Below, piece by piece: positions 10,318-64,000 of a DNA stretch of 64,000 nt. Each line of letters starts with the position of its first letter. The stretch's first letter is position 1. The notes beneath the pieces were generated by a model. The model made no database searches and had not been told where the DNA came from. It was given only the letters and a program-made list of their open reading frames with translations. Origin of the DNA: Sclerodactyla briareus (Eukaryota > Echinodermata > Holothuroidea > Dendrochirotida > Sclerodactylidae); the NCBI GenBank assembly GCA_026419785.1, contig JAODTK010001776.1, forward strand, positions 124,001 to 188,000. The letters are read 5' to 3'. Both the position numbers and the translations under genes were made by a program.

Positions 10318-10790
10318 GGTTCCAGCCCCCGAGACCGAAGGTCCACGAGACCGACCCCGGCCCCGCTACCGATTAAAAGGTTCCACGAGACCGACGTCCT
10401 CGAGACCGAAATTGTAAAAGGGTCCACGAAACCGAACGGCCCACGAGACCGACATTGAAAAGGGTCCAACGAGTCGGAAGGCCTGCGAGACCGAAACTTA
10501 AAAGGTTCCACGAGACCGAAGTCCGCGAGACCGAAATTGAAAAAGGGTCCACGAGACCGAAGGCCGCGAGACCGCGAAATTGAAAAAGGTCCACGGACCG
10601 GGGTCCGCGAGACCGATTGAAAAGGGTCCCCGAGACCGAAGGTCCACGAGACCGAACTTAAAAAGGGTCCATAGACCGAATGTCGAGGACCGAAATTGGA
10701 AAAGGGTCCCCGAGACCGAAATTCCGCGAGACCGAAATTAAAAAGGTTCCACGAGACCGCAAGTGTTCGCGAGACCGAATATAAGATAAA
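10318..10790 (+). repeat. GAGACC minisatellite, forward orientation
   Basis: Irregular tandem array built from 'GGTCCACGAGACCGAA' alternating with a longer version carrying an 'ATTGAAAAAG'-like spacer, giving units of roughly 16 and 27 bp. GAGACC occurs more than twenty times. The same family, reverse-complemented, forms the array at 18005-18485. The array gives long open minus-strand frames (192 codons at 10293-10871) only because its short units lack stops; these are not genes. Confidence 0.85.
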
Positions 10791-17194: not shown

Positions 17195-18004
17195 CGCATA
17201 TTTCTAGTCAGATTGCCTACATTTTTGTTTAAAAGGCTAGATGCAAAAAAAGTCGTATTGTCATTTCCGGTAAATTGTACTAATACGTATCTTCATGACA
17301 ATAGCTTCGTCAGAGTCTGGCAAATGTGTTATTATAACATGCGTGTCATCTCAAGTGCGTGACACATGAAGCACAATAAAAAAATGAAGTTGGGGCACGA
17401 TTTATTTTTCCCCCACCAATGCTCTAATCCCAAGTGCCATTTCCTAACATTGCACTAATTGCAGCATTATTGCAAATTTTTATGGATGTTGGCTACTTTC
17501 GGGACGGCCCGGGAGTGCCGGTTCCTGCAACCTGGGGGGTCTGGGTAACGAAAACATCCTCTTGTCGCTACGCGCCAACCGCTGGCGCATTCCCCTGGGA
17601 TGGTGGATGACCTCGTATGGCTCCCAATATTCCTCACAATCGCCGCCCCTGATTCATAAAGAAGCTGGAAATCATTATACTGTCAGGGAACAGGCCCTCG
17701 TCCGGAGTGTGAATTTTAGCGTACACATCGGAAAACAATTCCCGACTGGGGGGGGGAGTGGGGGGCGCTCCGGACGGGGGCATTCCCCCACTCCGCAGGA
17801 TGTACCTACAATATCAACAAATGTATACCGACAGACCATCTCAGGACGAAAAGTGGGAGAGACCGCCCGCTCCCCTTCATAGCTAAGTATTGAAGACCCT
17901 AATTATTGACAGATTAGTTTTGCACCATATTTCGCAAAAAAACAAAAAAAACAACAAAAAGACTGAGCGTATCCAGACGGGAATAATACAACTATCCAGG
18001 GTGT
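17195..18004. other. Unassigned spacer
   Basis: No gene recognised. A 106-codon frame at 17562-17882 ends in a G-rich low-complexity segment. An A-rich tract lies at 17935-17960. Confidence 0.35.
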
Positions 18005-18485
18005 TCTCATTTTCGGTCTCGCGAACCTTCGGTCTCGTGACCCTTTACGACTTTCGGTCTCGGGGCGGACCCTTTCTCACTTCCGGTCTCGCGGACCTTC
18101 GGACTCGCGGACCCTTTCTCACTTCCGGTCTCGCGGACCCTTCCGCACTTTCGGTCTCGCGGACCCTTTCTCACTTTCGGTCTCTGGACCCTTTTAAGTT
18201 TCGGTCTCGGGGTGGACCCTTTCTCACTTTTCGTCTCGTGGACCCTTTTTCAAGTTTCGGTCTCGTGGACCCTTTCCTCACACTTTCGGTCTCTGACCCT
18301 TTTAAGTTTCGTCTCGTGGACCCTTTCGCACTTTCGGTCTCGCGGACCCTCCCACTTGCGGTCTCGCGTACCCTTTTTACACTTCGATGCGTCGGCTCTG
18401 GACTCGTCCGGTCTCGTGGGCCGTCGTTCTCGTGGACCTTCGGTCTCGTGGGTCGTCGGTCTGTGACCTTCCCGTCTCGGTGGGG
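18005..18485 (-). repeat. GAGACC minisatellite, inverted orientation
   Basis: Reads 'TTCGGTCTCGTGGACCCTTT' and variants on the plus strand, the reverse complement of the array at 10318-10790. Units again come in a short form and a longer form with a 'TCACT'/'AAGTT' spacer. The 199-codon frame through it (17890-18489) is a repeat artefact rich in S, R, F, L and D. Confidence 0.85.
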
Positions 18486-22970: not shown

Positions 22971-25900
22971 CGCTTGGCTTGTGTGTGGTGTATGTGTTGA
23001 GTGTGTGTATGTGGGTATGTATGTAACACCTACCTTGTTAATCAGGCTAAGTCCAACATGCCTTGTGGGATCAAGTTCAAACTTGGTGGGTGGATTCCAT
23101 GCTGGTACATGAACGCTATTTATGTTTATTGAGTAGGGGGTTCAACTTTGGGACAAAAAGTGAAACTTTGTAAATTCTGGTATTTTGGGCACTTTACATT
23201 GTATAGGCAAGGTCCAACATGCTGGGGATCAAGTTCAAACTGGTGGGGGTGCTCCCATGATGAGTACATGCACGCTATTTATTGTTGTCTGAAATAGGGG
23301 GTCAATTTGGGCAAAAAGTGGAAACTTGTAAAATATGGTATTTTGGGCACGTTTACTTTTGTAATCAGGCAAAGTGAACATGCCTGGGGCTCACTTCACA
23401 CTTGGGCGGTGTGATTCCATGGTAAGTTACATGAACGCTATTCATTGTTGTATAGGTAGGGGGTCATTTGGGGTCACAAAAATGAGAAAACTTGTAAAAT
23501 TATTGGTATTTGGGCAATTTTACCTTGTAATCAGGCAAAGTCAACATGCCTGATGGGATCAAGTTCAAACTTGGTGGTGTGCTTCCCATGATGAGTACAT
23601 GAATGCTAGTAGGTTGTTTATGGTAGGGGGTCAATTTGGGCAAAAAGTGGAAACTTGTAAAATTATGGTATTTTGGGACTTTTACGTGTAATCAGGCCAA
23701 AGTCTCCAACATGCTGGTGGGATCAACTTCAAACTTGGTGCGGTAGTTGTCCCATGGTGAGTACATGAATGCTATTTATTTTGTATGGGGAGGGGGTCAA
23801 TTTTGGAGGCAAAAAGTGGGAAAATGTTTAAAAAATTCTGGATTTTGGGCACTTTTACCTTGTAATCAGGCAAAGTCCAACATGCCTGATGGGATTAAGT
23901 TCAAACTGGTGTTGTGCGTCCCATGATGGAGTACATGGAAGCTATGTATTGTTGTATTGAGTAGGGGGTCAATTTGGGCAAAAAGATCGGAAATCTTGTA
24001 AAATTCTGTATTTTGCGCACTTTGAATTGTAATCAGGGCAGAGTCAAAACATTGCCTGGTGGGATCAACTTCAAAAATTGGGGGGGTGCTTCCCATGGTG
24101 GTACATGAACGCTATTGATGTTGTAGAGTAGGGGTCAATTTGGGCAAAAAGGTGAAAACTTGTAAAAAATTCTGGTATTGGGCCCTTTTACTTGGTAATC
24201 AGGCAAAGCCAACATGCCTGGGGGGATCAAGTTCAACTTGGTGGGTCTGCTTCCCATGATGAGTACATGAAAACAAATTTATTGTGTATATGAGTAGGGG
24301 GTCAATTTTGGGGTAAAAAAAAGGGGAAATTTGTTAAAATTTGTGACAATGTATTATTTTGGGCAATTTTACCTTGTAATCAGGCAAGTCCAACATGCTG
24401 GTGGGATCAACAAAAACCTTTTTTTTCAAACTTAGGTGGGGGGTGCTTCCCATGGTGGTACATGACCGTAGTTAGTTGTATGAGTAGGGTTGTCACTTTT
24501 GGGCAAAAAGTGGAAAATGTAAAAATTTGGTATATTTCTGGGCATTTTACCTTGTAATCAGGCAAAGTCAACATGCATGAGGGATCAAGTTCAAACTTGG
24601 TGGCGTCTGCCTTCCCATGATGAGCTACCTGAACACTATGTAATTGTTGTAGAGTCGGGGCTGTCAATTTTGGGTTAAAAAGTGAAACTTGTAAAAATCT
24701 GTATTTGGGCACTTTTCACTTGTAATCAGGCAAAGTCCACTATGCCTGGTGCCATCAACTTCAAACTGGTGGGTTGTGCTTCCCATGATGAGTACAGAAC
24801 GACTATTATTGTTGTCTGAGTAGGGGCGTCAATTTTGGGCATAAAGGGGAAACTTGTAAACTTCTGTATTATTTTGGGAACTTTGACCTTTGTAAGCAGG
24901 CAAAGTCCAACAGGCTGGTGGATCCAAGTTCAAACTTGGGGGTGTGCTTTCCCTGATTTTGAGTACATGAACGCTATTTATTGTTGTGATGAGAGGGGGT
25001 CAATTTGGGCAAAAAGGTGAAAGAGGAAACGTGTAAATTCTTGGTATTTTGGCACTTTTATCCTTGTAATCAGGCAAGTCCAACAGGCCTGATGGGATCA
25101 AGTTCAAAATTGTGGGGGTGTGTGCTTCATGATGAGTACATGAACGCTATTTTGGTTGTATGAGAGAGGGCGTCATTTTGGCGCAAAAAGTGGACTTGTA
25201 AAAAATTATGGTATTTTGGGACTTTTACCTTGTGTAAACAGGCAATAAGTACCAACTGCCTGATGGAATCAAGTTCAAAAACTGGTGCGGTTGGTGCTTC
25301 TTCCATGATGAGGTACATGACCGCTATTTATTGATTGTATGGAGTAGGGGGGTTAATTTTGGGCAAAAAGTGGAAAACTTGTTAAACTCTGGTATTTTGG
25401 GCACTTTTCCTTTAATCAGGCAAAGCCACATGCCTGAGGCGGTCATCAAGTTCTAAACTGGTGGGTGTTGTCTTCCAATGATGAGACATGAATTGTATTT
25501 ATTGTTGTATGGTAGGGGGTGTCAATTGGGAAAAGTGGAACTTTTGAAAATTTGGGTATTTGGCACTTTTACATTGCTAATCAGCAAAGTCCAACATGCC
25601 AGTGTGGATCAACTTCAAAACTTGGGGGTGTGTTCCCATGGTGAGTACATCAATGCTATTCATTGTATGGGTAGGGGGTTCAATTTTGGGCGCAAAGTGG
25701 AAAATTGGTTAAATGCTGGTTTTTTGGGCCACTTTTACCTTGTAATCAGGCAAAGGTCCAACATGCCTGATGGGATTAAGTTCAAACTGGTGGTTTGTGC
25801 TTCCCATGATGAGACATGAACGCTATTTATGTTGTATGAGTAGGGGGTCCGTTGTGGGCAAAAAGTGTGAAACTGTAAAATCTGGTATTTGGCACTTTTA

Positions 25901-26910
25901 CCTTGTTCAGGCAAAGTCCACATGCTTGATGGGATCGATTCCAAACTGGTGGTTGTGCTTCCCATGATGAGTACATGACCGCCTATTTATTGTTGTATGA
26001 GTGCGGGGTCAATTTTGGGCAAAGGGGAAACTTGTAAATTTGTCTTTGCGGCCAATTTTACCTTGTAATCATTCTAAGTCCAACATGCTGGTGGGATCAC
26101 CTTCCAAAATTGGTGGGTGTGGCTTCCATGCGGGTACATGAACGTATTGTTGTTGTAGTGGGTTAGGGGTCAATTTTGGGCAAAAAGTGGAAACTTTAAA
26201 AATTCTGGTATTGTGGGCACTTTAACCTTGATATCAGGCAAAGTCCAACATGCCTGATGCGGATCAAGTTCAAACTTGGTGGTTGTGCTTCCCATGATGA
26301 GGGTACATGCACGCTATTCTTGTGTATCAGTGGGGTTGAAAATTTGGGCAAAAAGTGGAAACTTGAAAAATCTGGATTGTGGGTCACTTTTACTTGTAAT
26401 CAGGCAAAGGTCCAAAATGCATGGATGGGAACAAAGTTCCAAGCTTGGCTGGGTGTGCTTTCCATGATGAGCTACATGAACGCTATTTATGTTGTCTGAG
26501 TAGGGGGTCAAGGTGGGCAAAAAAAAACTGAAACTGGTGAAAGTCTGGTATTTTGGGCACATTTACCCTTGTAATCCAGGCAAAGTCCACATGCCTGTGT
26601 ATCAAGTCATAAACGTGGTGTTTGCTTCCCACATGATACATGATGCTATTTATGTTTACACCAGTCACAGTTCAAGCTATCTCTCTATTTTTACGTCTTG
26701 TGAAATTCTGGTATTCTTGACAGACTTACTTTTTACCTGTAATCAGGCTATGTCCAACCTTCCTGGCTGGTCTGAAACATGCCCTATACATTATTGCTAT
26801 TTTATCTCATTTCTAAGGCATGAGCTGGTGTTAGGGAATTAAGAACTTGAATCACAACCACATACCGTTGTGCCAGGAAATCACTAAGCTTTTTGGCTTT
26901 CTGGTTTATA
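22935..26910 (+). mobile_element. Satellite-bearing repeat element, locus 1
   Basis: A unit with three parts. The head, 'catctatgcagtcacg' plus a TG-rich microsatellite (22978-23025), ends in 'taccttgttaatcaggc'. About 23 tandem units of ~168 bp follow (23043-26760). The tail, 'aggaaatcactaagctttttggctttctggt' (split here at 26875-26905), contains an AAGC..GCTT hairpin. The same head and tail flank a shorter array at 55336-56670, so the three parts belong to one element. Core repeats of ~160 bp, a microsatellite and a terminal hairpin resemble the pearl/HINE class of non-autonomous Helentrons described in bivalves; that assignment is inference. Confidence 0.65.
23043..26760 (+). repeat. ~168-bp satellite array, about 23 copies
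   Basis: Unit starts ('caggcaaagtccaacatgcc' and variants) are near 23043, 23203, 23366, 23531, 23693, 23866, 24034, 24199, 24380, 24559, 24726, 24896, 25069, 25246, 25416, 25582, 25747, 25907, 26070, 26235, 26400, 26577 and 26744. Each unit has 'gggatcaagttcaaacttgg', 'cttcccatgatgagtacatg', 'gtagggggtcaattttgggc' and 'ttttgggcacttttacctt'. Copies differ mainly by one-base indels in homopolymers rather than substitutions. The 60-110-codon frames here are shadows of the repeat. Confidence 0.93.
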
Positions 26911-27554
26911 TGTAATGTTCATAGTAGTGCTCCGCAAAACACCTCGGACAAGTTGGAGTTGTCTGTAATGAACGGTGGTATGGGGGAATACGGTAGGTTC
27001 AGCCCACACTATGCCACTTATAACTTTGTCTCAACCTCATTTGAAAATTAAATTGATTTCTCTGTACATTCTACTATCAACACAAAGTGTATTCTTACCT
27101 ATATTAACATTTTGTTGGCCTGACTTTCTACATTTGGTAACACCCACTATGTTTTATTTTCATTCTCATGCAGTTCATACCATTTTTTCTCAATCTTCCT
27201 ACACTTGTTGTCATGTATTTTCGTACATTACTTTATTTTGTAATTCAGTACGTTTTGTTATTGATCAAAAGATTTGAAGATTCTTGAATTATTAATATTA
27301 CAATATTAAAAAAAAAAACACTGGATATATAACTCTCCTTTAGATGTAGCGAGGTCGCTAGCCCTGCCATCTCTGAGAATGCATTAATGTGGCTCCTCCA
27401 CTGTATGCCCACTAGATCTCATAGAAAATGCTTTTGTTCTCCACACTCGAATGAATATTTAACATGCCTTTTTGCACCTTAACTTGCTTTCTCGTAGGAT
27501 ACTTAATAGTATCCGAGTGCTGATAAAACCTCTTTCTCCATTCCTGTCATTAAT
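26911..27554. other. Unassigned AT-rich spacer
   Basis: Nothing recognised; a 100-codon AT-rich frame at 26975-27277 has no motif. Confidence 0.4.
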
Positions 27555-29289
27555 GTGGTTCAAAGTGCCCTTACGATACCACTGATTCATAGGAATTGTA
27601 GTTCGCACTCTTCCTCATTCCTGTTCAGTAATGTGTTCAAAGTGCCTTACAGATACCCTTATCATAGGAACGGTAGGTACACACTCTTCCTCATTCCTGT
27701 TCAGTAATGTGTTCAAAGTGTCTTACAGATACCCTGATCATAGGAATGGTAGGTACACACTCTTCCTCATTCCTGTTCAGTAATGTGTTCAAAGTGCCTA
27801 CAGATACCCTGATCATAGGGACGGTAGGTACACACTCTTCCTCATTCCTGTTCAGTAATGTGTTCAAAGTGCCTTACAGATACCCTGATCATAGGAACGG
27901 TAGGTACACACTCTTCCTCATTCCTGTCAGTAATGTGTTCAAAGTGCCTTACAGATACCCTGATCATAGGAACGGTAGGTACACACTCTTCCTCATTCCT
28001 GTCAGTAATGTGTTCAAAGTGTCTTACAGATACCCTGATCATAGGAACGGTAGGTACACACTCTTCCTCATTCCTGTTCAGTAATGTGTTCAAAGTGCCT
28101 TACAGATACCCTGATCATAGGAACGGTAGGTACACACTCTTCCTCATTCCTGTTCAGTAATGTGTTCAAAGTGCCTACAGATACCCTGATCATAGGAATG
28201 GTAGGTTCGCACTCTTCCTCATTCCTGTTCAGTAATGTGTTCAAAGTGTCTTACAGATACCCTGATCATAGGAATGGTAGGTTCGCACTCTTCCTCATTC
28301 CTGTTCAGTAATGTGTTCAAAGTGCCTTACAGATACCCTGATCATAGGAACGGTAGGTACACACTCTTCCTCATTCCTGTTCAGTAATGTGTTCAAAGTG
28401 TCTTACAGATACCCTGATCATAGGAACGGTAGGTACACACTCTTCCTCATTCCTGTTCAGTAATGTGTTCAAAGTGCCTACAGATACCCTGATCATAGGA
28501 ATGGTAGGTTCGCACTCTTCCTCATTCCTGTTCAGTAATGTGTTCAAAGTGCCTACAGATACCCTGATCATAGGAATGGTAGGTTCGCACTCTTCCTCAT
28601 TCCTGTTCAGTAATGTGTTCAAAGTGCCTACAGATACCCTGATCATAGGAACGGTAGGTACACACTCTTCCTCATTCCTGTTCAGTAATGTGTTCAAAGT
28701 GCCTTACAGATACCCTGATCATAGGAACGGTAGGTACACACTCTTCCTCATTCCTGTTCAGTAATGTGTTCAAAGTGTCTTACAGATACCCTGATCATAG
28801 GAACGGTAGGTACACACTCTTCCTCATTCCTGTTCAGTAATGTGTTCAAAGTGTCTTACAGATACCCTGATCATAGGGACGGTAGGTACACACTCTTCCT
28901 CATTCCTGTTCAGTAATGTGTTCAAAGTGTCTTACAGATACCCTGATCATAGGAATGGTAGGTTCGCACTCTTCCTCATTCCTGTTCAGTAATGTGTTCA
29001 AAGTGCCTACAGATACCCTGATCATAGGAACGGTAGGTACACACTCTTCCTCATTCCTGTTCAGTAATGTGTTCAAAGTGTCTTACAGATACCCTGATCA
29101 TAGGGACGGTAGGTACACACTCTTCCTCATTCCTGTTCAGTAATGTGTTCAAAGTGTCTTACAGATACCCTGATCATAGGAATGGTAGGTTCGCACTCTT
29201 CCTCATTCCTGTTCAGTAATGTGTTCAAAGTGTCTTACAGATACCCTGATCATAGGGACGGTAGGTACACACTCTTCCTCATTACTGTA
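27555..29289 (+). repeat. 76-bp minisatellite, 22 copies plus one degenerate
   Basis: The consensus unit begins 'gtgttcaaagtgccttacag' and ends 'cattcctgttcagtaat'. The first full copy starts at 27633 and the last at 29221. Twenty-one intervals total 1588 bases, exactly 21 x 76 minus the eight one-base deletions I count. A degenerate copy precedes at 27555. Three variable sites define alleles: cctta/ccta/tctta, ggaac/ggaat/gggac, and tacacac/ttcgcac. The ggaat and ttcgcac states travel together in copies 8, 9, 12, 13, 18 and 21, showing spread of unit types. Because 76 is not a multiple of three, the 75-125-codon frames across it are artefacts. Confidence 0.97.
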
Positions 29290-42600: not shown

Positions 42601-45600
42601 ATTTTTAAGTTGTGAATTGGAATACTTTAGCAAAGCAACCTGGTTGAATTCCAAATTTCCTGTGTGGGTTCTTCCGGAAACTAAAGATAAGTGTAAAAAG
42701 TATAGGGAGTTATGAATACTCTCTCATTTTATTAACCATCAGAATCATTACAGTTGAAAGTTTAACGAACCTCGCTGAATGTATCTATCTGTTTTTTAGT
42801 GCCAACCAGTGACAAAGTGCCCGAGGATGTCGAGCCCAGGTATCTGGAAGATGAAGGTTTCTATGTGGGGGTCAAGCCCAGGTCTCGTCAAGGGACCGTA
42901 ACGCCATGGAGAACAGCTGCTCAAACAGCCTGACAAGGTGAGGTATTGACTACAGACAAGTGAACAAACAGTCTGAGCAAGTAGTACCTGTCCTAGCATA
43001 ATTCGAGGGCAAATTTGAATATGTAACAGATTGAAATGCTACCTAATCAATTTATCTATCGCAGATCATTTCCTGAAGAATTAATCAGAGACTCAAGGTA
43101 CATTTACACAACACAGAGTTTTCACCCACATGTTTTCGTTTTATTCTTGCACACCCTAAAATTTGTTTTCCTCTAATGATATTTTGACCACTCCACACAG
43201 GGATCAGCCTGGTTTGGTGAAGATGGCTTCATCAAGGCCTTCCCCTGATCCCCTGAAGGAGACCCCAACCAGACCACAGATACCAAACAACGAGAGCGGG
43301 AAACCGGGGCTGCAGACAATCTTCACAAAGGTAAAGCTTAAGGGCCAGGCATACTTAGAGTGCAATCTCATGGTGGAGTCTAACAAATGAGACCTAGTGC
43401 TGTGGTTGTCCATCAAGCTTACTCATTCGCAAGGGGGGAGGGAATACTATCCAGTCCACTTCGATGGGAGACAGGGCATGGGTACCTATTGGGGAAGGTT
43501 AAAAATTGATGATAATCATTTGGTACACTGCATGCCGAGGGCCCCCAGGTTCCAACAACCCTTTCAATGTGCCTCCCAGCGTTGCCAGTAGTTCACAATT
43601 AATAAACCTTTAGAGGCTGTTTCATTGGTACGAATTTGTGAAGAATGGTGCCAGATTTTCCTAAAATTAACAGGATTGCACTTAGCAAACTTTGTTCAAA
43701 TTGCATGCACTTTCCTATGACGCTGGAACTATGCTTATTTACATACTGCTCCAAGACGTAGCTGTTTTTTCCCCGCCCCTTCAACACAGGATTGGTCGGG
43801 GTTGCAACATTTAGGTGAATTTCCTAAGAATTCTCAAATAATAACGCTTCCATAGTGTTATTCACTGTAAGAGAGATTGATCGGCAATCTTGGCAACTGC
43901 AGGGTTGCCATGATAGAGAGGGAGTGCTCAGAACGGAATTCTGCACAATGCTTGCAAACAATAGTCGTGATGCCATTTGTTAGAGGTAGTGGCAATGTCA
44001 GCTTATGGTTGATATTTATAACTCCAAATGGATTTCCAATGTGCCACCGGGCAACTCCTACGTAGGTTAGTTTGATAGGACGTGCAAAACTGTAATAGTG
44101 CATATACCTGCCATGCAGGTGAGGTCGGAGGATCAGTGGGTCGTTCTTGTGCATTTTGGGGATTCCATGGAGGGGTGTACTACTAACTGAGCGAATAGAG
44201 GGCTTTTGCACTTAGAACCAGTTATTCTTGTATAACAGCCAGCGCAATTGTCTCTGTGTATGATTATTGAAAAGTACCGTAGGCCCGTCACAAAACCGGA
44301 TGTAGTAGCACTGGGCAGTGCGTTGTATTGTGCACTCAGGAAGGGGGTGCACTGTTAGAGAACCTCATGCAGCACTGACGCATGCCAGTAACTAAAGCTA
44401 GTGCATGTGTAACCTTAGGTTCCATATTATTTTATGCAACAAGACTTATGGAAGGCTGTTTACCCAAGTTTGTATGAACCCGAAAAAAAGTGGCCCAACA
44501 TTCGTTTGTGTTTTGACGACCGCATTCGCGTATCGTTAAAAGTTAAATGTGAGATTCTCCAATTTGGAAGGTTGGAAGTTTGTATAGGTTGCCCTGAAAG
44601 CCCATTCTTTAGATTATGATTTACATAGAAGTAAATAGTAGGTGATGGCACTGATCATGTTTTACCTTCTCTAAGGCTAGTGGTACTCTACTTACTGGCT
44701 ATTAATCAGACATGACTGTGTGTGCAGAATGAAGGATAGCTGTGTGACTGAATTAGTCCCTCAGTGTGGAGTATCCCATCAAACCCAGAGTAGGGTTGTA
44801 GATCAGGGGGTTTCATGCCCAATCTCTAACACGGATGGTTCCGTTGTTACGTTTCCTCCAGTATGAACTGATGAAATGCAAATCCTAGAGGAGAAAAAAG
44901 TACATATATTTGAATGATTGGTATGTACATGTATTTTCAAAAAGGTAACTAGTGACTAGGTAGGGGATTATAAAATAGAATTTGCCTGAACAAAAATCTC
45001 CTTTGAGAATAGTGTTGGTTAACATGGATTAGATCATCTAAATGTTGTGTTGAGAAAAATAGATGCCTGTATGGGAAAAAATCTGAAGAGGGGGCTTGGG
45101 TTTTATTAGTTTTGAAAAAAAAAAAAACATCCGAACTTTTTTCGGCTGTTGATGGATATTGTGTGTCCTACCCTATTTCTGAACAAATTACTGTACACAA
45201 CAGCAGTTCATATGTCTTCAATAGTATTCAATTTATGAGAGTGTTGCACATGTCATCCTGTTCTTCTTTTTTCAGGCTGTATTGGTGGATGCGGACCAGG
45301 GCTATTTCCTCGTCGTTGAATTCCCTGGAGGCCTCTTACCAGCTAGACATTGACATCAACACCACCTGGGTTTCCCATCACTCACTGTTCAAGTAAGGAG
45401 CACGTGCTGGCTTCTAGCCTCTCACAGATGTACGACCAGTATCCATCAAAGACAGCAGAGAGACATGGCCGAGTATCTCACAAGAAGGTATTCATAATCA
45501 ATGTGATTGAAAGGTGTACCCCCCTTATTGGGGAAGAAGGGGTGTGGGGGGGTGGTGGTGTTACTACTAACCAGTGTTTTACCCAACACTCCCTGTTCAG

Positions 45601-48600
45601 TAAGGCGTATGTGCTGGCCTCTAGCCTCTCACAGATGTACGATCAGTATCTCAAAATACAGACGATGGACCTGGCTGAGTATCTCACAGAGAAGATAATA
45701 TAATCATGTAGATTTGAGGAGTTACGCCTTATAGAGGGGCAGAAGAGAAGAGGGGGGGGGGGGGGGGGGGGGGGGAGGGTGGTGGATGGTATCTCCATAA
45801 TGTGTTCACCCATCACTCCCCTGGTCAGCACGAGCACATGCTGGCCTCCAGCCTCACAGATGGTAACGACCTGAAAAGGTATCTACCTTTACGTGGATCA
45901 CGGATGGGGGGAGTTTGATGAGGAGGCTCCTCCCATTACGCAGTGTTCACCTATTACTTTTTGTAAGCGGGAACTCCTTGTCACTGCCACCTCAGCCTCT
46001 CACATGTATGACAAGTACCTCAAGATGGACACTGCTGAGCATCTCATAGGAAATGTATTCCATGATGTGATCACTTAGAGCCGAGAAGTGTAAGAGTCGG
46101 GGGGGCTGCTCCCAGTTTCACCACCACTGTTTCAGCAAGAAGCCGGCAAATGGCCTGGCCTCCACCCTCTGATAGGTACGACTAGTTACTCTAGAGATGA
46201 ACGTATGCTTTATATTCACATATTCATGTACATTCCATGAGTGTATAATGGACGTGGGGTCTCTTTAAACTCCATCCTATGGCAGGAATATAACTGCACC
46301 GTCAACCGCCTCAATAGACGAAACAGGGTCCATGGCCAAGCATCTCCACAGAAAAAGATCTCAATTCTTGTTGCTTCAGGCCTTATTCTTCATGGAATCT
46401 TTATCCCATTAGTAGCATGTTTTGTTTGTTTGACCCGGGTGTACATTCTTTCCAACCATTTGGCCATGTGGGTCTATGCTGTTTACACCTCGAGGGAATT
46501 TAGTATTCATGTACTATAAGAGTGGTAATGATGTGTGATCTCTTCCATTGTCCATGGATATCACTATTGTTATCTTTCGATATCTGTATAACAGGGAGCA
46601 TGGACTGTGACTCCCATCCTCTGGAAATATACAACTGCACCCCTCATGAGACACAAAAAAAAACCGGATCATGGCCAGCCAGTATCTCACCAAAAGAGGA
46701 AACTTATTCGATTGTTCAGACTTAATTCGTCCTGGAGCTTAGTTCATTCAGTAGAATTGTAGAATGTGTGATAATTTTGAGCCTGATAAATACTTCGTAG
46801 GTCATATTAAGGTTACGCACTAATAGTTACTGCAGTGGCTGGTGCTAAGAGGGGGTGAAGAGGGATTTCTCATGTCCAATTGGAGAAGTCCCTCTCAAAA
46901 CGGAATTCAAGAGGGGCAAACTTCCCAATCATTTGGACATTGGGGTTGTTGTGGTTGGGTATAAGAGGGTACGGTCCCTCTTTCCATCTGAAATCCCAAA
47001 TCCCTCTTCATAATAAATCAAAGATTGAAAAGCCTAGAGGCCCAGCACTGAGAGTTACTGAGTGGATGTGGGTAATATTGGTGAATTAATTACCACCGCA
47101 TTCCTAAAGGAGTGCCGACTGATGAACAATAACGAATACCACAAGGGAGTATTTATTACTGTAGGATCATACATTATCCTCACACCCCTTTCATCCCAGC
47201 CTATTCTCTGCCGACAACGCTTCCAAAACATTATTTGAATTGCATGACCACACCAAATTCTCTTCTATGCAGCTTGGCGCATTGAAGCAGGCAGCCCACT
47301 CGCTTGAAGCTCAGCTGTTTGATAGGGACTCCAGTGAAGAAATATTGGAGGGCCTCAGACAGTCGATAAAGAGCTTACAAATATGAATACGGTAGGGTGA
47401 TTATAAATTCTGATTCCCCTGAACCACTCGTTTACCATCGAATGCGTCGATGAATAGCCTGTGAATGTTCCAGGACTGCCTGAGCTACAAATATGAACTG
47501 AGTTAGGGGATGTTGAACCCGTGCTGTACAAAATTGTTCCAAAGGCGAGGATGTGACTTCTGTGTACAGCATTGTTGGCAGTTAGTTATGATGCTGCTGA
47601 ATATATGCTTTCCTTATCACTGACCACTTACGTATGGGGGCCGTCTCTAGCGCAGTGTAGACATCAAAATTCTCATTAAACCGGAAGCTGCTGAAAATGG
47701 GGACCATTAAAACTTTTGGGCCCTCTTGTCTTGAGTCCACATAATTGCCAGATATCACAATTTGGCTGCAAATTCTAATATTTCACAGTGGGTACCATCA
47801 ATTATCACATGGGTCCCCGGGTCAACTGAACACAATCAAAGTTTTTAACTCATTTGTACCTGCTGCATTCTTGTGTGGCTAGGACACTCACTGTGGTTCG
47901 GAGACAAGAAACTGGATTTTATTTGCTCAGAAGATACTGTCCTGTTCTGTCAATACGGGACCTAGTGGATTGGACGCACTGGTGTAGCCTGATTGGTAAG
48001 CGCTTTTGGGGTTTGGGTACCGTTAGGGTTGCTTTGAGGAGGCTGTGGTGGATAAGGAGCGGGGGTAGATTGTAAGGCTGGGGGTATCCAAGCATATTTG
48101 TACAGGGAGCGAGTACTGCATTGGTACTAAGCCAAAAGAATCGATCACTATTATCGTAGCGGGAACATGCTTCGAGGTATACTGCAGGCTTGTGCGGAAT
48201 AGTTTTCTCCAGAGGGTGAGCCAGTATTGTCAATACCCAAAAGATAATTTCTAAGGCAAAACTGGAGGATTTCTGGAGTGGCAAGTGAGTCTTCTCAAAA
48301 AGTGAGCCTATGTCAACTGTTTGTGTGTGGTCAACTTAATCATGTTGGTGTATTTCATCTCAGTGCTATGCAGCATAAGGTTAGGTAGTAGTCGTTTGCA
48401 GAGATAAGATGTTCCACAGGGGCCAAACATCTGTCCATATAATATGAAATGTGCACGGAGGTGTCGATATACCATGTGTTTCCATTGATGTGTCATTGTT
48501 GCTGCATCATCTCAAGAAATTCACATGGAACATCGTCTCAAAACCGAGCACCTAGTTAACACGCCTTCCAAGTCATCGAACAAGGGATTTCTTCTTGATG

Positions 48601-59206: not shown

Positions 59207-61428
59207 CGAAATGTGTGGCTAAAAGCAAGATTAACCTGACTGTTGCAACAGACTTTACCCTAAAGAGGTTTTTCACCACCCTGTCTCTGATAACTTATTC
59301 CGATTAATTGCTACTACAGGGTACGGACAGCCCACAAAATTGAAATTTTCAAATCCAAGCTTCCTATGCCGAAACCAATTGGTTGTGGTCAGCTCTGTGT
59401 AATGGGTAGTATCCTAATTGCGTCAGTTGTGTGACAGAATATTGACAGATGATTGAATATTTAATGAAAACACCATGAGAATACATTATGTGCGTCCTGT
59501 CCGTACTACGACACAGCAGCAAATTTATCTCTCAAAAAGTTTCTTTAGCCAGAAACAGAAGATATTCAAAAGTATTAGGAATGAACAAGGCCAGGACTTG
59601 CTGGCTTTGATTCATATGACCATATAAAGGCCAGGTGCTCCAACATTAATATATGGCTCCCTTTAATCTACATGGTCTTTATTTTTGCCATGGTAACTAT
59701 AAAGATGCTTAGCTCATGAAACATAAGTCATACTGGGTTTTGAACAACCCATTTTGATTACAATAATTGTCTGTGACACAACATCCCCTAACCATGGTTT
59801 ACAAAGACTACAAGGCAACTGAAAGATATGTGAAGGAAAAGGATTGACAAAATCAGCATATTGATGGTGGAATAGTGTGGAAAACCCCGAACGCATAAAA
59901 TAATGAAAATAATACATCACCACATTGACATGCAATATTCAGATAACTTTCAATGGTAATCTAGTGTTGTGACAATACTGGACAGGTTATTATCAACTAT
60001 GTTCATGTCATTCAGAAATGTACAATGAGCTAATATTAGCAGTCCTCCATTGGTTTGCTACCTTAGAATTTAATTAGAAAATCAAAGATTAGACAAGAAT
60101 GCAGCTATGCATAGTGATTCCTTGCCAAATATCCAACATCCTGTAAAAGAGGAGGCTCCACGATCACCTAAAATTTAACATTTATCAGTCATAGCATGAA
60201 AGTAGCGGAATAATAATTCACCACATACCAAAACACGTCGGATTGTGCTTGTCGAGTGAGTTTGAAGTAACACGTTCCCTTTACTTTGGCCATTATTAAA
60301 TGCAAATAATAACTTGTGCCTATAATACTACTTTTCCCCAAATTGTCGGGGTTGTAAAAATGAGTTAATCACAATACACTGTTTGATATAATACATGACG
60401 TGTGTACAAGTCCAGTGAACTTGCAAATGCTTTTACCTGGAAAAAACACCCATTCCGGGTGGCACATGACGGCTTTTGGCCCGTTGGCGTGATGCGGAGC
60501 GACCATAAATTAGCAGAGTGCCTTGGTTATAAAGATGGCCTAATGTGTGGTCGCGGCATGTGTACTGAGCACAGTCCTCAAATGTAGTAATGAATCGTCT
60601 ATTTAAAAACTTCTTACCCATGATAGCCCAAAACCTTTTATGACTTGTGGGCCTGCTTAACAGGATTTGTGTCAGTTGATGGGTATGGAGCTGTCAAAAT
60701 TAGGTTTTATTGTCCTAGGATCCGTGGAGGGCGAGGCCTGCCCTGAAAATTGGAACTCACCGGACCTGTACACGTAATGTTGACAATGAAAAGCTTGGTT
60801 CACTCCAGGATGGAAAAAACAAATTTGAACAAAAGTTAATGATTGTCAAAGTCCAATACCAGCCATATTTTGACTTGGTACACGAAAAGTTGGGTCCAGC
60901 AGTGGTAGCCACACAGGACGAGTTGGTTGTTACTAATATTACCCAGAAGTCATTAGTCTAAATGAGGTCAAAGGAATGTCAAAGTAGGTCACTAGGTTCA
61001 GTTCGTAAGGAAGAAACAAAAATTCTCCATTACGCCACCCCACCAACCGGTTTTGTTGCGAAGATATATGAAGATTTGAAATATCAGTGTTTAAGAGGCT
61101 GTTTCACCATTTGACAGAACAGAAGACAATAAGTGGAGTCTGGAGGAGATAGCATGTTGCTAGCAGTGTTTCAGTGTATGTCAGTACTATTGATTAGGTT
61201 TGATGAAACTAGACGATCCTGGTCACCACAAGAATGACCTTTGAAGGTCACAAGTCATTAGGTCGAATGAAGTGAAAGTAGGTCACAGATATCGTTTACC
61301 TAGATGACAGACTTTCCCTTCAATGTGCTCTGAATGGTTTCGTGGTCAGTATAGGAGGGATTGCCCTATGGTGATCTTCGATGACCTGACACTAAAACTA
61401 GGGTCATCCTCACCACATACCTAATATG
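59207..61428 (+). repeat. Large tandem duplication, copy 1
   Basis: Matches 61735-64000. From 60848 to 61428 the match to 63420-64000 is exact at a constant offset of 2572 bases. From 59207 to 60847 the two copies are alignable, but differ by frequent one- to few-base indels. No gene recognised inside; the short frames at 60402-60621 occur in both copies only in disrupted form. Confidence 0.92.
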
Positions 61429-61734: not shown

Positions 61735-64000
61735 GACAATGCGAAGTGTGGGAAAAAGCAAGATTAACTGACCTGTGGAACAGACTTACCCTAAAGAGGT
61801 TTTTCACACCCATGTCTATGAAAATTCTTCCGATAATTGCGACTACAAAGGGTTACGGACAGGACAAAATTGAAATTTTTCAAATCCAAGCTTCCTATGA
61901 CAGAAACCCAATGGTTGTGGTCGCTCTGTAATGGGTAGCTATCCAGAAGTTGCAGTCAGTGTGACAGAATATTGACCAGATGATTGAATATTTAATTGAA
62001 AACATGGCATAATGTATGTGAGTCCTGGCCGTACTACAACCCAGCAGCAAATTTATCATATCAAAAAGGTCTTTAGCAGACACCAGCATATCTGCAAAAA
62101 AAAAAAATTATTAGGAATAAACAGGGCATGACTTGCTGGCTTCTGTTGATTCATATGACCATATAAGGCCAGCTGCCTCATAACATATATACATGGCTCC
62201 CTAACTACATGGTCTTTTATTTTTGGCATGGTAAACCTATAAAATGCTAGCTCCATGAAAACATAAGTTCATATGGGTTTTTGAAACAACCCATTGCATT
62301 ACAATAATGTGCCTGTGAACAAACATACCCCATAAACATTGTTTACAAAGGGACTACAAGGGACAACTGAAAGATATGTGAAGGAAAAGGATTGACAAAA
62401 TCAGCATATTGATGTGGATGGAAATAGTGGAAAAACCGACACCATAAGAATAATTGAAAATAATACATCACCACATGCATGCAATATTCAGATAACTTTC
62501 AATTGTAATTCTAGTTTGTGACTAAACTGGACTAGTTTCTTATCAAACTATGTTCATATCATAATCAGAAATTGTACATGAGCTAGTAGCATGTTCCTCC
62601 ATTGATTGTCTCACCAGCACTTAATTAGAAATCACGATTAGACAAGAATGCAGCTATGCATAGTGATTCCTGCCAAATATCCAAATCTGTAACAGAGGAG
62701 GCTTCCAAGATCACCTAAAATCTTAACATTTATTCATTTCATAGCGGATAGTAGCGGAATAATGTTTTTTTACCAAAAAAAAAAAAACAACAACCCAATT
62801 CAACACATACCAACACGTCCGGATCATTGTGCTTTGTCGAGGTGGAGTTTGAAGTAAAACGTCCTTCCTTTGGCCATTAATACATGCAAATAAACCTGTG
62901 CATATAATACTTACTTTCCCAAATTAGTAGGGGTTTGTAAAAATGAGTAATCACATACACTGGTTGAGATCATACATGACGTGTACAAGTCCAGTGAACT
63001 TGCAAATGCTTTTACCTGGAAACAACACCAATTGCGCGGTGCCATGAACCGGCTGTGCACGGGCGTGAGCGACCAGAAATTTAGCAGCGTCCCTTGGTTA
63101 TAAAGATGGCCTTGTGTGGTTGCGGCAGTGTTGTACATTGAGCACAGTCCTCACATGTAGTAATGAATCAGTCTATTTAAACTCGTACCCATGACTCAGC
63201 CCAAACCCCGTTTCAGCTTGGGCCTTGTTAACAGTATTGGTTGTTCAGTTATGGGTAGGGAGATGTCAAATATTAGGTTTTATTGTCCCTAGGATCCGTG
63301 GAGGGCGAGGCCCTGGCCCTTAAATTGGAACTCACCGGACCTGTACACGTTAATGTATGCATAATGAAAAGCTTGGTTCCTCCAGGATTGGAAAATATGA
63401 ACAAAAGTTAATGATGGTCAAAGTCCAATACCAGCCATATTTTGACTTGGTACACGAAAAGTTGGGTCCAGCAGTGGTAGCCACACAGGACGAGTTGGTT
63501 GTTACTAATATTACCCAGAAGTCATTAGTCTAAATGAGGTCAAAGGAATGTCAAAGTAGGTCACTAGGTTCAGTTCGTAAGGAAGAAACAAAAATTCTCC
63601 ATTACGCCACCCCACCAACCGGTTTTGTTGCGAAGATATATGAAGATTTGAAATATCAGTGTTTAAGAGGCTGTTTCACCATTTGACAGAACAGAAGACA
63701 ATAAGTGGAGTCTGGAGGAGATAGCATGTTGCTAGCAGTGTTTCAGTGTATGTCAGTACTATTGATTAGGTTTGATGAAACTAGACGATCCTGGTCACCA
63801 CAAGAATGACCTTTGAAGGTCACAAGTCATTAGGTCGAATGAAGTGAAAGTAGGTCACAGATATCGTTTACCTAGATGACAGACTTTCCCTTCAATGTGC
63901 TCTGAATGGTTTCGTGGTCAGTATAGGAGGGATTGCCCTATGGTGATCTTCGATGACCTGACACTAAAACTAGGGTCATCCTCACCACATACCTAATATG
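61735..64000 (+). repeat. Large tandem duplication, copy 2 (cut by window end)
   Basis: Second copy of 59207-61428. The left half is noisy relative to copy 1, with homopolymer-length changes such as a run of 13 A near 62096 and of 12 A near 62776. The right 581 bases are identical to copy 1. The copy continues past the window edge. Confidence 0.92.

Follow-up and report, generated by a model that had tools for sequence, protein, structure and literature searches.

A decayed tandem array of a partial exon beside a conserved exon in a candidate CC2D2A gene of Sclerodactyla briareus

When part of an exon is followed, head to tail, by a series of copies of itself, the question arises whether the copies are alternative coding material, the beginnings of a new intron, a product of the assembly, or the remains of past duplications. 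We consider this question for a locus of the holothuroid Sclerodactyla briareus within a window of 64,000 nucleotides (assembly GCA_026419785.1, contig JAODTK010001776.1, positions 124,001 to 188,000); positions below are those of this window, and the exons and copies lie on its plus strand.

The best clue to the host gene is an exon at 42799..42937, about 2.4 kb upstream of the arrayed exon on the same strand, which matches DUF5523 (PF17661), a family that we take to be part of CC2D2A; its 5' limit is approximate, as the match begins at about 42757. This exon scores 44.5 bits as printed (profile positions 165–192) and 67.1 bits over 45 residues (profile positions 165–209) once both breaks are bridged with X, a gain indicating that it carries two frame-changing indels as printed. 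Its donor, a GT at 42938, ranks fourth among 4056 GT sites; this and all other splice-site ranks given here rest on approximate weights. Further CC2D2A-type domains were absent from the three plus-strand frames between 42.5 kb and the end of the window, and may lie beyond it. The host gene looks like an animal ciliary gene; the name CC2D2A, proposed in a preliminary description of the locus, gains from the DUF5523 exon but is unproven, as searches with the arrayed exon itself hit neither a Pfam model nor a PDB chain. Relatives of the exon peptide were confirmed neither among 28 pattern matches in viral contigs nor among 65 in prokaryote genome contigs, which is expected for an animal gene. We found no literature on DUF5523 and none tying CC2D2A to exon duplication, tandem or otherwise.

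The repeated unit measures about 206 bp and extends from the middle of the exon, before residues HHSLF, to about 80 bp into the next intron, ending in a G-rich sequence. The arrayed exon (45276..45487, defined from sequence and translation) consists of an unduplicated 5' half and the 3' half that belongs to copy 1. It is preceded by the best acceptor of the window, an AG ending at 45275 after TTTTTTCAG (rank 1 of 3613 AG sites), and is followed by a weak donor at 45488 (AAG|GTATTC; rank 527 of 4056). A probable next exon at 47273..47391, inferred from translation and lacking a Pfam match above the cut-off, shares phase 0 with the end of the arrayed exon and contains, close to its own end, what looks like one 1-base indel; its acceptor at 47272 ranks 201 of 3613, and an alternative ending at 47199 scores higher (rank 102). 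The end of this probable exon also recurs downstream, with 47367–47396 resembling 47482–47513 (GAGCTTACAAATATGAA against GAGCTACAAATATGAA). We considered a broader rule, that every exon end of the gene is repeated downstream, and rejected it: among 3000 random positions drawn outside tandem arrays, only 1 scores as high as the repeat of the arrayed-exon end, whereas the other two ends are equalled by 427 and 65 controls, the latter figure being that for 47367–47396.

Seven head-to-tail copies are recognizable between 45364 and 46757, one in the exon and six after it. In a self-blastn comparison, 45364–45637 pairs with 45570–45862 at 71% identity (E 4e-34), and TRF reports a 207-bp period at 45374–45759. 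Copy 1, comprising the 3' half of the exon and the start of the intron, spans 45364..45569 (nhmmer E 3.9e-65, against a model built from this copy), and copy 2, 71% identical to it, spans 45570..45799, with a long run of G toward its end. Copies 1 and 2 were made into a profile, which was run on both strands of the whole window; it matched three segments directly downstream, namely copy 3 (45800..45926; E 8e-7), which is decayed and shortened, and the decayed copies 4 (45927..46108; E 2.5e-8) and 5 (46109..46215; E 2e-4), and gave no other match at E < 1. Pairwise alignment scores were compared with those of 1000 dinucleotide shuffles, using boundaries between copies that were chosen by eye, as they were for the copy count. 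No shuffle reached the score of copy 3 against copy 1 or 2, of copy 4 against copy 1 or 2, or of copy 5 against any of copies 1–4, and 9 of 1000 reached that of copy 4 against copy 3.

The strongly decayed copies 6 (46216..46418) and 7 (46561..46757) are recognized only by these pairwise alignments: a fragment of copy 6 (46317–46388) has a profile E-value of only 1.1, and copy 7 is absent from the profile matches in the window. They are closest to one another, being alignable over about 200 bp, 46216–46418 with 46561–46757. The scores of copy 2 with copy 6, copy 1 with copy 7, and copy 6 with copy 7 were each reached by 0 of 1000 shuffles; support is weaker for copies 1 and 6 (8 of 1000), 5 and 7 (13), and 2 and 7 (35), and there is none for copy 6 with copies 3, 4, and 5 (987, 369, and 540 of 1000) or for copy 7 with copies 3 and 4 (937 and 512). 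Together, self-blastn, the profile search, and the shuffle-tested alignments confirm the six copies after the exon that had been described earlier. The alignment of copies 6 and 7 carries the array a little past 46700, where its end had been placed, to 46757. The proposed decay with distance holds roughly but not in strict order, since the identity of copy 1 is 0.58 to copy 3, 0.50 to copy 4, and 0.58 to copy 5.

Divergence between copies 1 and 2 is greater in the intronic than in the exonic part. The exon part shows 15 differences in 113 aligned bases (98 identical), compared with 22 in 71 for the intron part (49 identical; Fisher p 0.005); over the whole alignment there are 14 transitions, 18 transversions, and 9 gaps in 179 positions. 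Neither read errors nor gap filling would yield such a contrast, which argues that the array is real and old. Coding constraint acted on at least one of the two copies once the duplication had occurred, and the contrast does not tell which.

The copies are poor candidates for the ready alternative exons that had been envisaged. Given that the unit consists of half an exon and the start of an intron, copies 2–7 lack the original acceptor. Copy 1, which had been called intact, is frame-broken as printed by three net 1-base differences from copy 2: an extra A in TTCAAGTAAGG relative to TTCAGTAAGG of copy 2, one net extra base past the DQY codons, and one base missing before the exon end. Copy 2 does keep an open frame through the motif, as the preliminary description stated, but it has lost the GT at the exon end and meets a TAA at 45701, two codons past that end. 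In copy 4 an open stretch precedes GTATTC at 46055, which is a poor donor (rank 1946 of 4056), and the translations of copies 3 and 5–7 show no frame that keeps the motif. As printed, and with base-level accuracy uncertain, fewer than two copies combine an open frame with both splice sites. We are nonetheless cautious about all arguments from single-base features of the array, including those on splicing, which are not trustworthy in either direction because other exons carry indels as well and because some repeats elsewhere in the window look like unpolished reads.

How far the assembly can be trusted at this scale is indicated by the repeats of the window. A hand count puts the frame-changing indels at about six within about 495 bp of sequence presumed to be coding; the share that falls in copy 1, 3 of the 6 in 113 of the 495 bp, is not significant (p 0.14). 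A 166-bp satellite of about 21 units (23031–26607) has many 1-base indels between adjacent units; ten sampled pairs of units sum to 58 transitions, 130 transversions, and 131 gaps in 1480 aligned positions. A 2.5-kb tandem pair, 59213–61428 and 61746–64000, could represent a single locus that entered the assembly twice because of noisy reads. Its halves differ by 14 transitions, 86 transversions, and 137 gaps in 2127 aligned positions, by 139 mismatches and 106 gaps or 86 mismatches and 144 gaps with two other gap settings, and by 289 mismatches (104 transitions, 185 transversions) and 58 gaps when aligned by MAFFT; the noise signal of this pair depends on the aligner, and it is under permissive gap costs that most of the differences are 1-base indels and transversions. 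Differences between repeats that are rich in indels and transversions suggest assembly noise of the kind left by uncorrected long reads. In the other direction, a very regular 76-bp satellite of about 23 units (27530–29288), whose variants recur between units, showed no singleton indel when 22 units (1664 bases) were read by eye, only eight recurrent indel events of two kinds; this clean array speaks against noise spread evenly over the assembly and in favor of frame breaks that are real. A pair at 34.8 and 36.2 kb has more transitions (56) than transversions (36); this pair and that of copies 1 and 2 look like ordinary evolution or a mixture. Five further pairs and five inverted pairs are intermediate or small. 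Assembly accuracy may vary along the window, and we slightly favor the view that copy 1 and the neighboring exons owe their broken frames to indel errors of a locally noisy assembly rather than to the dying of the locus.

These observations bear on two less favorable readings of the locus. That the array itself is an assembly artefact, arising from gap filling or from false duplication by noisy reads, is very improbable in our judgment: the probable noisy double assembly at 59.2–64.0 kb in this window speaks for it, but the divergence among the copies is far above read noise and unequal between exon and intron parts, and copies 3–5 are only about 0.47–0.58 identical to the others. The earlier preference for a real, old array over gap filling is upheld on these grounds. 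A decayed gene copy, in which both copies of the exon are dead and an intact gene resides elsewhere, is a more serious contender, and we regard it as unlikely without dismissing it. The number of frame-changing indels, the cleanness of the 76-bp array, and the lack of later CC2D2A-type domains in the plus-strand frames up to the window end all speak for a pseudogene; yet no nonsense substitution was seen once the indels were bridged, the GT and AG dinucleotides flanking the exons are kept, the bridged DUF5523 exon retains its 67.1-bit match, noisy stretches do seem to be present in the window, and the later domains may fall outside it.

A further possibility, to which we give little credence, is that the duplication created an intron. 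The exon sequence TTCAGTAAGG would provide both splice sites, a donor in copy 1 (TTCAA|GTAAGG, with GT at 45393), where the frame is preserved by one added A, and in copy 2 an acceptor (CTGTTCAG|TAAGG, with AG ending at 45600). The second half of copy 1 would now be intronic and free to break, copy 2 would code, and the further copies would be fossils of earlier rounds of duplication. With the approximate weights used here, the donor-like site is strong (rank 35 of 4056) and the acceptor ranks 327 of 3613. The branch-point-like heptamer TACTAAC, which occurs three times on both strands of the window, lies at 45565 across the start of copy 2, about 30 nt before the AG. Joining 45276–45392 to 45601–45703 gives one open frame, a result that depends on the extra A, and the exon-part frame is unbroken in copy 2 and broken three times in copy 1. 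Chance alone, however, would keep the frame one third of the time, and copy 2 would need an onward donor in place of its lost exon-end GT: the GT sites before its stop score at most 3.0, apart from the internal one at 45600 (4.4), and the best after the stop scores 3.3. A new intron also leaves the indels in the other exons unexplained, and the concentration of indels in copy 1 is, as noted, not significant. In the potato new-intron case, as its source outlines it, a duplication likewise crossed an exon–intron boundary and a donor-like site lies in the formerly exonic upstream copy; there, however, the new intron was detected, whereas here there are seven copies, copy 2 lacks an onward donor, and the junction is only predicted. 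According to PMC4974935, proven recent examples of intron birth by tandem duplication are few; if the junction between copies 1 and 2 were spliced, this locus would be such a case.

We consider it probable, on balance, that copy 1 was kept as the coding copy of a serial tandem duplication and that copies 2–7 are now intronic debris. Replication slippage or unequal crossing-over would have duplicated a segment of about 206 bp in tandem, several times over, and the G-rich tract toward the end of the unit may have helped. Still attached to the 5' half of the exon and to the original donor, copy 1 would have remained the coding copy, and copies 2–7, having landed in an intron where no splicing is required of them, would have decayed, the farther ones more. 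Support for this debris reading comes from the unduplicated 5' half, the top-ranked acceptor, and the exon-end GT that copy 1 has and copy 2 lost; against it stand the clean exon-part frame in copy 2 rather than copy 1 and the weakness of the exon-end donor of copy 1 beside its strong internal donor-like site. The copies, the unit they share, their positions, and the better conservation of the exon part between copies 1 and 2 are directly shown, whereas which copy is spliced, in what order the events occurred, and what part the G tract played are inferences.

The surroundings of the array do not set it apart. Outside four satellite stretches, ten direct duplicate pairs with closely spaced members were listed in the window, a figure that counts the array and contains some overlap, so that tandem duplication on a local scale is common in this region and the array is not exceptional. 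About 8 kb apart and in opposite orientation, GTCCACGAGACCGAAG-like repeat arrays at 10326–10779 and 18004–18484, which share about 69% identity when aligned in inverted orientation, may mark the two ends of a transposon-like element; between them, at 11.7 kb, lies an ORF of 190 aa that had neither a Pfam nor a phage match. Rfam and ARAGORN each returned 0 matches in the window, and in a Pfam search that covered its six frames in part, ten further ORFs or frames elsewhere gave no match above the cut-off and one sub-threshold MHYT.

The array resembles tandem exon duplication as outlined in PMC9013439 in that copies of exon sequence lie head to tail within one gene, and differs from it in that half an exon and the start of an intron make up the unit, in that most copies are decayed, and in that it is known from sequence alone. 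We conclude that it is real, old, and probably non-functional debris, of an already known kind, beside a conserved exon. If copies 2–7 are indeed dead, they would document on a small scale how duplications of part of an exon accumulate and fade beside a conserved exon.
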